Origin: Lysobacterales bacterium
GTDB taxonomy: Bacteria; Pseudomonadota; Gammaproteobacteria; Xanthomonadales; Rhodanobacteraceae
Length of the DNA: 32,673 bases
Reading direction: 5' to 3'
Assembly: GCA_014338185.1 (NCBI GenBank)
Contig: QUBV01000036.1
Coordinates: forward strand, 1 to 32,673
Under the pieces are notes generated by a model. That model searched no databases, was not told where the DNA came from, and saw only the letters and a list, made by a program, of their open reading frames with translations. Every line of letters starts with the position of its first letter. Positions within the stretch are counted from its first letter, which is position 1. Shown here in pieces: positions 5,286-9,861 of the stretch. The position numbers and the translations under genes are program-made.

Positions 5286-5666
5286 TCAGGCGGCCTGCTT
5301 GGGAATCGAATGTCGGGTGTGGGTGATCTTGTTGTGGCGATCCACGTACACGAGCGTGGGTTGGTGCTGCGCGGCCTCGGCCTCGGCATACACGCCATAG
5401 GCGCAGATGATGATGATGTCGCCCGGTTGCGCCCGATGCGCGGCGGCGCCGTTGATCGAGATCGTGCCCGATCCTTCGTCGGCGCGGATCGCGTAGGTCG
5501 AGAACCGCTCGCCGTTGTTGACGTTGTAGATGTGGATCTGTTCGTACTCGCGGATGCCCGCGCAATCGAGCAGGTCGCCATCGATTGCGCACGAACCCTC
5601 GTAGTGGAGTTCGGCCTGGGTGACGTTGGCGCGATGGATCTTGGCCTTGAGCATGTTGAGGTGCAT
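5286..5666 (-). CDS. panD: Aspartate 1-decarboxylase PanD (pyruvoyl enzyme precursor)
   Basis: Makes beta-alanine from L-aspartate for pantothenate. The 126-aa zymogen self-cleaves between Gly24 and Ser25 (sequence YEGSCAID) to give the pyruvoyl group, exactly as in E. coli PanD (126 aa). The MLKAKIHRA opening, K9, the [14 protein letters not shown] segment around residues 47-60 and the GDIIII stretch are family signatures. The start at 5666 is backed by GGAG about six bases upstream; starts further up only add unconserved residues. PanD is not in one block with panB-panC: the 133-aa membrane protein and a candidate small RNA lie between them, and panD seems to have its own promoter. Confidence 0.97.
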
Positions 5667-5683
5667 GGACACTCCGGGCTGCC

Positions 5684-5701
5684 TGTTGCGTTCACGCAAC
5701 A
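5684..5701 (-). promoter_or_regulatory. Hairpin in the panD 5' leader
   Basis: A 7-bp perfect inverted repeat, TGTTGCG and CGCAACA, separated by TTCA. It lies 18 nt above the panD start codon, between the predicted panD transcription start (about 5708) and the ribosome binding site. It could be an mRNA-stabilising stem or a DNA operator. Function is unknown. Confidence 0.4.
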
Positions 5702-5714
5702 ACACGGGAGCGGC

Positions 5715-5743
5715 AGTATAGCAACGGCTCTTTGCGCAATGCA
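5715..5743 (-). promoter_or_regulatory. Probable panD promoter
   Basis: On the minus strand TGCATT (5743-5738) is followed after 17 nt by TATACT (5720-5715), a good -10. The start of transcription would be near 5708, giving a leader of about 42 nt for panD. The -35 match is weak. It sits downstream of the strong intrinsic terminator at 5783-5816, so panD needs its own promoter unless that terminator is read through. Confidence 0.45.
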
Positions 5744-5782
5744 CCATTCGCCGCGGACACCCGCAAGTCGTTGCGAGGGCAT

Positions 5783-5816
5783 AAAAAAAACCCCCGCGCG
5801 AAGATCGCTGCGAGGG
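5783..5816 (-). terminator. Strong intrinsic terminator of the candidate small RNA
   Basis: Read on the minus strand: a 7-bp stem (CCCUCGC with GCGGGGG, one G-U), one bulged A, a further 4-bp stem (GCGA with UCGC) closing a UCU loop, then eight uninterrupted U. This is a textbook Rho-independent terminator. No gene on this strand ends nearby except the 133-aa membrane protein, which has its own terminator at 5922-5947. The transcript ended here is therefore most likely the short RNA starting near 5897. Confidence 0.85.
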
Positions 5817-5897
5817 TCTCAATTTTTGGAGTGACGATTACCTGCGATGCGCCCTGCTGTCGCGAACCCCCGCAATGGAGCCGGGAATCCAAGCGAC
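5783..5897 (-). ncRNA. Candidate 115-nt small RNA between panD and a membrane-protein gene
   Basis: A self-contained transcription unit on the minus strand. An extended -10 (TGGTATTCT, 5912-5904) predicts +1 at about 5897. There a long hairpin begins at once: GUCGC (5897-5893) pairs with GCGAC (5863-5859), two bulged U follow, then GGAUUCCCG (5890-5882) pairs with CGGGGGUUC (5872-5864) around a nine-base loop GCUCCAUUG. A mostly single-stranded linker containing CACUCCAAAAA follows, and then the terminator at 5783-5816. The RNA has no AUG, so it is not a leader-peptide gene. Both unpaired parts show CUCC, complementary to Shine-Dalgarno GGAG. It is preceded by a separate terminator and followed by the panD promoter. 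An alternative reading is an attenuated 5' leader of panD. I do not recognise the RNA family. Confidence 0.6.
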
Positions 5898-5903
5898 GTG
5901 GGG

Positions 5904-5912
5904 AGAATACCA
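5904..5912 (-). promoter_or_regulatory. Extended -10 promoter of the candidate small RNA
   Basis: TGGTATTCT on the minus strand matches the extended -10 form TGnTATAAT at seven of eight defined positions. There is no good -35 box 17 nt above, as expected for an extended -10 promoter. It lies ten bases past the U-tract of the previous terminator and places +1 at the base of the 5' hairpin. Confidence 0.5.
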
Positions 5913-5921
5913 CAACTCGGG

Positions 5922-5947
5922 AAAAAAAAGCTACACCCGCGTGCAGC
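5922..5947 (-). terminator. Intrinsic terminator after the 133-aa membrane-protein gene
   Basis: On the minus strand GCUGCAC (5947-5941) and GUGUAGC (5936-5930) form a 7-bp stem with a GCGG loop, followed by eight U. It begins 58 nt after the stop codon of the membrane-protein gene and isolates that gene from the downstream small-RNA unit. Confidence 0.8.
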
Positions 5948-6005
5948 CGCGCCACAGCCCTGCGCCACGCCGCCAACATGCGTGCCAGGACCCGCTGCGC
6001 ACGGC

Positions 6006-6407
6006 TCAGAACCAACCCCGGATCCGCCCCGCCAGCCACGGCGCGGCCGCGGTGACGAGCACCACCAGCGGCCACAGATTGCCATCGCGGAAGGTGTAGG
6101 CCGCAAGGATCTCGCCCAGCGGCTTGCCGCGCAGCAGGCCGAAGCCGAACTCGAACACGAGCGTCGCCAGCAGCCAGCCGATGCCCACCCCGGCCAGCTC
6201 GCGCGGGTCGCGGCTGCCCAGCCACGGCACGGCGGCCACGGCCACCCCGAGGATGAGCGCAGCCAGCAACAGACCGCTGAGTGCGAGTCCCGCGTTCAGA
6301 CCGAGCCACGGCACCAGCAAGCGCTCGCGCAAGCCGCCGTTGGCGATCGCCAGCAGCAGGATCACGCCCCAGACCAGCAAGGCCTTGCCGAACATCGTCG
6401 CGCCCAT
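6006..6407 (-). CDS. Small unknown membrane protein (four predicted helices)
   Basis: A 133-aa hydrophobic protein I do not recognise. It starts MGATMFGKALLVWGVILLLA and has about four transmembrane segments (roughly residues 8-20, 29-54, 63-83, 102-126). A conserved-looking ANGGLRERLLVPWLG stretch lies near residues 20-35, and RGKPLGEILAAYTFRDGNLWPLVV lies between helices 3 and 4. The start is uncertain: longer frames add a polar, arginine-rich tail unlike a membrane-protein N-terminus, and a second ATG lies four codons in. No catalytic motif is seen. It lies between panC and panD on the same strand, 181 nt after panC, and has its own intrinsic terminator at 5922-5947, so it is at most loosely tied to pantothenate synthesis. 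Confidence 0.7.
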   Translation of the reverse strand: MGATMFGKALLVWGVILLLAIANGGLRERLLVPWLGLNAGLALSGLLLAALILGVAVAAVPWLGSRDPRELAGVGIGWLLATLVFEFGFGLLRGKPLGEILAAYTFRDGNLWPLVVLVTAAAPWLAGRIRGWF

Positions 6408-6524
6408 CCCGTTCCCACCCGTCACTTGGCTGACATCGGCCCGGGCCGGACCGATGCCGGACTCGCGCCCAGCCATGCGAACGCATGCGCGGAACTGGAA
6501 TGGCCCCATGCCCCGCATCACGTC

Positions 6525-6544
6525 CGCGGCAGCGCGCTGCCGCG
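6525..6544. repeat. Perfect 20-nt palindrome downstream of panC
   Basis: CGCGGCAGCGCGCTGCCGCG reads the same on both strands. It begins 45 nt past the panC stop codon and could fold into a stable 3' stem on the panBC message. There is no T-tract, so it is not called a terminator. Confidence 0.4.
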
Positions 6545-6588
6545 CCGCCCGCACGCATGCGCCGCCGGCGCAGCCGCCCGTGGCGCGA

Positions 6589-9785: not shown

Positions 9786-9861
9786 GCTCCCTTCGTCTAG
9801 TGGCCCAGGACACCGCCCTCTCAAGGCGGGAACACGAGTTCGAACCTCGTAGGGAGCGCCA
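9786..9861 (+). tRNA. tRNA-Glu (anticodon CTC)
   Basis: A 76-nt cloverleaf with encoded CCA. The acceptor stem GCTCCCT (9786-9792) pairs with AGGGAGC (9851-9857), then discriminator G and CCA. The anticodon stem CCGCC/GGCGG holds the loop CTCTCAA, giving anticodon CTC, which reads GAG. The T-arm contains the GTTCGAA consensus. The fit to glutamate identity is clear. Confidence 0.95.

Follow-up and report, generated by a model that had tools for sequence, protein, structure and literature searches.

A conserved and apparently undescribed small-RNA gene family at the pan locus of the order Lysobacterales/Xanthomonadales, with a candidate anti-Shine-Dalgarno segment

We observed that the minus strand of positions 5897-5783 of the window (the whole 32,673-nucleotide stretch of DNA analysed here) almost certainly carries a real small-RNA (sRNA) gene, a member of a family that appears not to have been described before; our searches of the open-access literature, which were few and narrow, yielded no earlier description. 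A first-pass annotation of this DNA had proposed a stand-alone sRNA gene at this place, and the conservation of its promoter and terminator, the covariation of its hairpin and its occurrence among relatives now strongly support that proposal at the level of sequence. The gene and its parts are as follows.

5783..5897, minus strand: sRNA gene of ~115 nt, from the predicted +1 to the end of the U-run (both ends predicted)
5910..5933, minus strand: -35 region (TAGCTT) and spacer, from the column frequencies of 79 aligned promoters
5904..5914, minus strand: extended -10, TGTGGTATTCT, from the column frequencies of 79 promoters
5859..5897, minus strand: 5' hairpin, variable in sequence and covarying (fold, swap test and clade alignment)
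5845..5856, minus strand: box A, CAGGGCGCAUCG, better conserved than any other segment ahead of the terminator (CAGGGC in 89 of 90 unique copies)
5828..5838, minus strand: box B, AUCGUCACUCC, candidate anti-Shine-Dalgarno seed (CACUCC in 82 of 90)
5783..5817, minus strand: intrinsic terminator, ACCCUCGC...GCGGGGGUUUUUUUU (-8 kcal/mol or lower in all 90 copies)

Along the minus strand, a T-run (5929-5922) is followed by TGTGGTATTCT (5914-5904), the predicted +1 (5897), the hairpin (5897-5859), the linker and the terminator. The extended -10 had been read at this place before, as had a +1 coinciding with the first base of the hairpin, a second U8 terminator ending at 5783 and the absence of AUG from the RNA, and all of these were recovered at the same coordinates. 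The fold comprising a 5' hairpin and a terminator was also reproduced: the 115-nt RNA is predicted to form one 5' hairpin, a linker and the terminator at -46.1 kcal/mol (z = -2.41; equal stability in 4 of 200 shuffles).

Occurrence and conserved architecture of the sRNA gene

A blastn search of 148 relatives gave 30 loci at E ≤ 1.8e-5, each adjoined by panC and/or panD; at the looser cut-off of E ≤ 1, 126 of the relatives matched, in many cases by chance. From the alignment of these 30 copies (A1) we built a covariance model, R1. The covariance-model and Rfam searches that the first-pass annotation had suggested were both run. R1 matched the window with 97.2 bits (E 7e-29); the copy concerned is one of the 30 sequences from which the model was built, and it was the single strong copy in its own genome, the next-best match reaching 19.7 bits. 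Rfam 15 gave no credible match to the element: at the gathering thresholds the sole match in the window was a tRNA-Glu(CTC) at 9786-9861 on the plus strand, and at E ≤ 10 over positions 5500-6200 the matches at the sRNA element were all of chance level.

Homologues were found across the order. Full-length R1 matches of at least 29 bits occurred in 91 of 298 sampled genomes of the order, with at least one such copy in each of its 12 labelled families (f1-f12); at E ≤ 0.01 the number of genomes rose to 144 of 298, many of the matches covering the terminator only. Three weak loci among the 40 that were fetched (L171, L172 and L208; 20.9-26.8 bits) had neither the core nor pan genes and were dropped as chance. 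The 115 collected copies were reduced to 90 unique ones by removing those identical to or contained in others. Among 369 genomes drawn from the class, own-order ones included, there was no credible copy outside the order: 28 genomes matched R1 at E ≤ 0.001, 26 of them from outside, and these out-of-order matches were rejected, the best 10 places being without adjacent pan genes and the top score 31.8 bits. A pattern scan of named genomes was also made, and among 80 listed of its 106 stretches, 48 held a full-length R1 match of at least 44 bits; the other listed stretches, one from Xanthomonas phaseoli (L108) among them, did not. One full-length copy of 44.7 bits without adjacent pan genes lies on a contig labelled Candidatus Paceibacterota (L077, JALHNF010000024.1), which is perhaps mis-binned.

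We also considered 21 f1 and f2 genomes chosen for having no strong match. In all of them panC was present and R1 found nothing at the fetched panC loci; in 20 of the 21, panD was found nearby. Lineage-specific loss is the simplest reading of the absence of the sRNA from some f1 and f2 lineages, which we infer to be Rhodanobacter/Dyella-like and Xanthomonas/Lysobacter-like. Vertical inheritance within the order would be the best explanation of how the gene is distributed.

The promoter could be aligned in 79 of the 90 copies, the other 11 having a short flank or no anchor that we could find. The consensus reads TTGgcTTTT, 17 nt, TGTGGTAnnnT and then CMAC just before +1. The T, G, T, G and G that precede the -10 hexamer are conserved at 77-97%, the TA at 99-100% and the last T at 100%, so that the -10 seen in the window is conserved among its relatives. 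The T-run at 5929-5922 had been taken for the U8 of a terminator (5922-5947) closing the upstream gene. That pattern does exist in the window, but in relatives the T-run is conserved as part of the -35 region, TTGgcTTTT. Of 46 copies that could be scored, 9 had a hairpin of energy below -5 that ends at the T-run; the mean hairpin energy there (-3.6) was near that of shuffles (-3.3). In the window itself the T-run may still act as a terminator. The terminators of the sRNA itself have a mean energy of -17.5 kcal/mol. From conservation, the gene is predicted to have its own promoter and intrinsic terminator, independent of its neighbours. We noticed two further motifs. An inverted repeat, GTGG...CMAC (5913-5898, minus strand, in the window; TGTGGT-N6-ACCACA in L020), spans the -10 and the start in most copies; it may serve as an operator, or may be no more than part of the promoter. 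Repeated GCAAC motifs were also noticed, and an operator made of GTGG...CCAC/GCAAC is putative.

The first-pass annotation had named compensatory changes in the 5' hairpin, in advance, among the points on which its reading could fail, and we observed such changes in two ways. In the swap test, made with 31 representatives that resemble one another by less than 60% in the 5' arm, arms folded with their own partners gave -10.6 kcal/mol versus -7.1 kcal/mol with foreign ones (p 7e-7), whereas the downstream flank, used as the control, showed no difference (p 0.6); with all 90 copies the values were -12.1 and -7.7. In a 16-copy alignment, mostly from f8 and f10, double changes were observed in 5 of 9 drawn pairs (9 cells). 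Of the nine, two pairs can form in few of the sequences, and a third in 10 of the 16. No more than 1 of 500 shuffles reached this count of double changes, and sliding the pairing gave lower scores. RNAalifold did not show the 5' hairpin on a MAFFT alignment of 30 copies, in which MAFFT misaligns the hairpin, and alignment A3, also misaligned there, was left out of the covariation count. The predicted 5' hairpin is maintained by covariation.

The two boxes lie in the linker between hairpin and terminator. Their mean unpaired probability is 0.60 for CACUCC (over the 82 copies that have it) and 0.40 for CAGGGC. Two exposed CUCC sites had been proposed, one in the hairpin loop and one in an unpaired segment. 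The latter, within CACUCC at 5833-5828, is conserved, but the former is not: a mostly unpaired CUCC in the 5' domain was seen in 3 of 90 copies (the window copy L001, L016 and L017). Box B is the predicted conserved, accessible segment with complementarity to the Shine-Dalgarno sequence. It is not indispensable, since three f9 copies (L194, L195 and L196) have lost CACUCC while keeping box A; these copies offer a natural test of the role of box A.

Proposed pairing with Shine-Dalgarno sequences and candidate targets

Anti-Shine-Dalgarno action by this RNA is plausible. Box B (UCACUCC) would pair in trans with Shine-Dalgarno sequences of the GGAGUGA type, and pairing at the ribosome-binding site would block translation of the message; the candidate targets include exported and outer-membrane proteins. 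The U-tail may serve to load Hfq, and box A may be a second seed or a protein contact. We give an even chance to the RNA being a trans-acting regulator that uses its CACUCC box to pair with Shine-Dalgarno sequences of the GGAGUG type.

It is possible, though unlikely, that the boxes instead serve as a protein-binding site or as general competitors of the ribosome, so that the RNA would not be message-specific. Such a putative role is favoured by box A being the better conserved of the two and surviving box B in f9, and also by the box B of f8 and f10, AUCACUCC, which resembles, less one C, the 3' end of 16S rRNA, which we take to be AUCACCUCC. A wider reading, which as a whole we regard as quite unlikely, is that of an ancestral, order-wide regulator of envelope proteins, in which box B would mimic the 16S tail and compete with the ribosome for GGAGUGA-type messages, the still better conserved box A would be a second functional box with a partner of its own, and the RNA would have been lost in two side lineages.

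Returning to message-specific pairing in trans, we looked for leaders complementary to box B. The pattern GGAGTGAN{1,8}ATG occurs at 14 places in the window's own genome, among them the leaders of an OmpA-like barrel, MlaC and azurin (by Pfam) and, as judged by eye, of a secreted protein resembling a peptidase and of an ORF resembling an ECF sigma factor. The related pattern GGAGTGACGN{0,8}ATG occurs at 75 places in 23 genomes and at none in the own genome, and few of these places recur between genomes. The evidence is weakly suggestive for four candidate targets: a secreted protein encoded in the window, the OmpA-like barrel, azurin and mlaC. The neighbouring panD was tried as a cis-linked target and rejected, GGAGTG being present in a minority of copies and not conserved.

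The secreted protein (28366-27857, minus strand) was itself found by the pattern, its leader having CCAGGAGTGAAAAAATG; it has no Pfam or NCBIfam family and ends in LPVQLQSFTVG. Its divergent homologues are ~30% identical. Seven genomes of genus g1 were reached by protein search rather than by the pattern, and in six of them at least one member has GGAGTGA at the ribosome-binding site: G005, G006, G009, G011 and G012 (L317, L323, L324, L327, L334) and G008 (L366). The members in G007 are without it, and four further g1 genomes were left out of this count because they were pattern-found. Among the leader rows of the whole family, GGAGTGA stands in 8 of 30, or in 5 of 27 without the three pattern-found ones, two pairs of rows being duplicates; in genus g15 its place is taken by GGAGTAA, GGAGTCA, GGAGTTA or some other sequence. 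In G006, G011, G013, G015, G029, G050 and G063 homologues share a contig with the sRNA gene, at a distance of 22-43 kb from it, and in the leaders looked at the homologues follow a gene ending in (D/R)FDSRRQ..IG.

For the OmpA-like barrel, GGAGT was present in the leaders of 9 of 17 sRNA-bearing genomes versus 1 of 9 without the sRNA (Fisher p 0.09), a count that omits the pattern-chosen G000 and G003 and the second copies in two genomes (both GGAGT). AGGAGA is usual in the genomes lacking the sRNA. This contrast follows clade borders, and clade structure alone could explain it. The azurin leaders are mixed. Exported proteins made up 9-10 of 16 coding-like GGAGTGA genes, which include two orthologue pairs, versus 12-13 of 35 GGAG[ACG]GA controls (Fisher p 0.13); all 49 control places were covered in G000 and 38 of 48 in G003, and the codon-composition filter dropped most ORFs, the secreted-protein gene of the window too.

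When duplex energies were computed with the whole core, azurin (-26.7) and mlaC (-28.5) bound more strongly than the 17 controls on average (mean -22.3), one of which reached -30.7, whereas weaker duplexes were formed by the OMP leader (-17.3) and that of the secreted protein in the window (-12.7); in G003 the OMP gave -19.1 versus -21.7. Box B alone favours all the candidates, which were picked for the box B motif. In a 400-kb sample of G013, TGA follows 1 of 23 GGAG sites, that one being the pattern-chosen gene, which ranked 4th of 242 by the whole core and 2nd by box B against a rough background of poor gene calling and many spurious ORFs.

Genomic neighbourhood of the sRNA gene

The neighbours of the sRNA gene in the window are, by Pfam, panD (Asp_decarbox), panC (Pantoate_ligase), panB and pcnB, the pan genes being those of vitamin B5, and the sRNA gene lies between the panC-side genes and panD. 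A hydrophobic ORF at 6006-6554 (minus strand), which has no Pfam or NCBIfam match, so that a provisional naming as DUF3054 was not confirmed, separates panC from the sRNA; it is so placed in 2 of 90 copies. Upstream we found panC in 67 of 90 copies and the window-type ORF in these two, 69 in total. On the downstream side the adjacent same-strand gene is panD in 42 copies and pgi in another 30, in total 72 of 90. Nine of the other 18 copies have a convergent gene next, namely queG (L009, L010, L012, L030, L053 and L069), a gene for a HerA-like helicase (L188 and L190) or one for a SEC-C protein (L085), and one of the 18 is at a contig end.

This arrangement raises the possibility that the RNA acts in cis, as a leader or attenuator for panD or pgi, its terminator halting read-in unless a signal intervenes. 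This reading agrees with the 72 copies that precede panD or pgi, with L023, where pgi is further downstream on the same strand, and with the panD start lying 117 nt downstream of the sRNA in the window. We nevertheless hold it improbable: the RNA is not simply a panD/pgi leader because 9 of the 90 copies precede a convergent gene, and a strong terminator stands in every copy, while the 21 genomes described above keep panC, and 20 of them panD nearby, without the sRNA.

Still less probable, indeed very improbable, is a 3'-UTR-derived or read-through product of panC that has no gene of its own. Although 67 of the 90 copies directly follow panC, and the panC stop codon can fall in the -35 region (L010, by eye), the conserved -35 and extended -10 stand directly ahead of the hairpin, and the promoter is retained in copies without panC upstream, e.g. 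L015 and L029.

An independent sRNA gene likely has a general role, since one locus has been kept through the whole order with promoter, fold and both boxes under selection. If the RNA is absent from Xanthomonas and its near kin, as we infer, that would account for its having been missed by sRNA studies of the order. The family comes with a covariance model, a locus that is fixed and, in bacteria of the environment and of activated sludge, candidate targets open to testing.

Comparison with known regulatory RNAs

Envelope sRNAs of the RybB, MicA and OmrA-B type repress outer-membrane proteins in trans. The action proposed here would be alike in its repression of outer-membrane proteins, and we saw no kinship in sequence; the OmrA-B model of Rfam scored 14.2 bits near the element versus a gathering threshold of 40 (E 8.7). 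Kinship with cyanobacterial NsiR1 (RF02399) is scarcely credible: an f10 copy (L197, 3071-3124), one of 11 loci scanned, scored 33.3 bits over box B and the terminator, sharing with NsiR1 a short stretch before a CCCC/GGGG terminator, but this is below the gathering threshold of 39, terminator and U-run account for much of the alignment, the window copy has no match, and the NsiR1 model has 60 positions and no counterpart of the 5' hairpin.

The first-pass annotation had suggested a relative or analogue of sX13 of Xanthomonas. The analogy holds, but kinship is unsupported, as locus, fold and reported range all differ. Both RNAs have ~115 nt, stable stems and C-containing segments, which for the Hfq-independent sX13 were proposed to pair with G-rich ribosome-binding sites (PMC3771888). 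sX13 is located downstream of polA, has three stems with 4C/5C loops (CCCC/CCCCC) and is reported only from Xanthomonadaceae (PMC3771888), whereas our sRNA is at the pan locus, has one 5' hairpin and carries CACUCC in the linker. The predicted fold of the window RNA has no C4/C5 loop. No sX13-named match appeared in Rfam at gathering in the window or at E ≤ 10 over 5500-6200, a negative that counts only if that library includes an sX13 model.

In AbcR1/2 and NfeR1 of Sinorhizobium, anti-Shine-Dalgarno motifs, of the CUCC type in AbcR1/2, cover the ribosome-binding site; their targets include periplasmic transport proteins, and NfeR1 is likewise 115 nt long (PMC8844928). These RNAs differ from the present one in belonging to alphaproteobacteria, in sequence and fold, and in having proven targets where ours are candidates. 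AbcR1/2 and NfeR1 are the closest functional models for the sRNA of the window.
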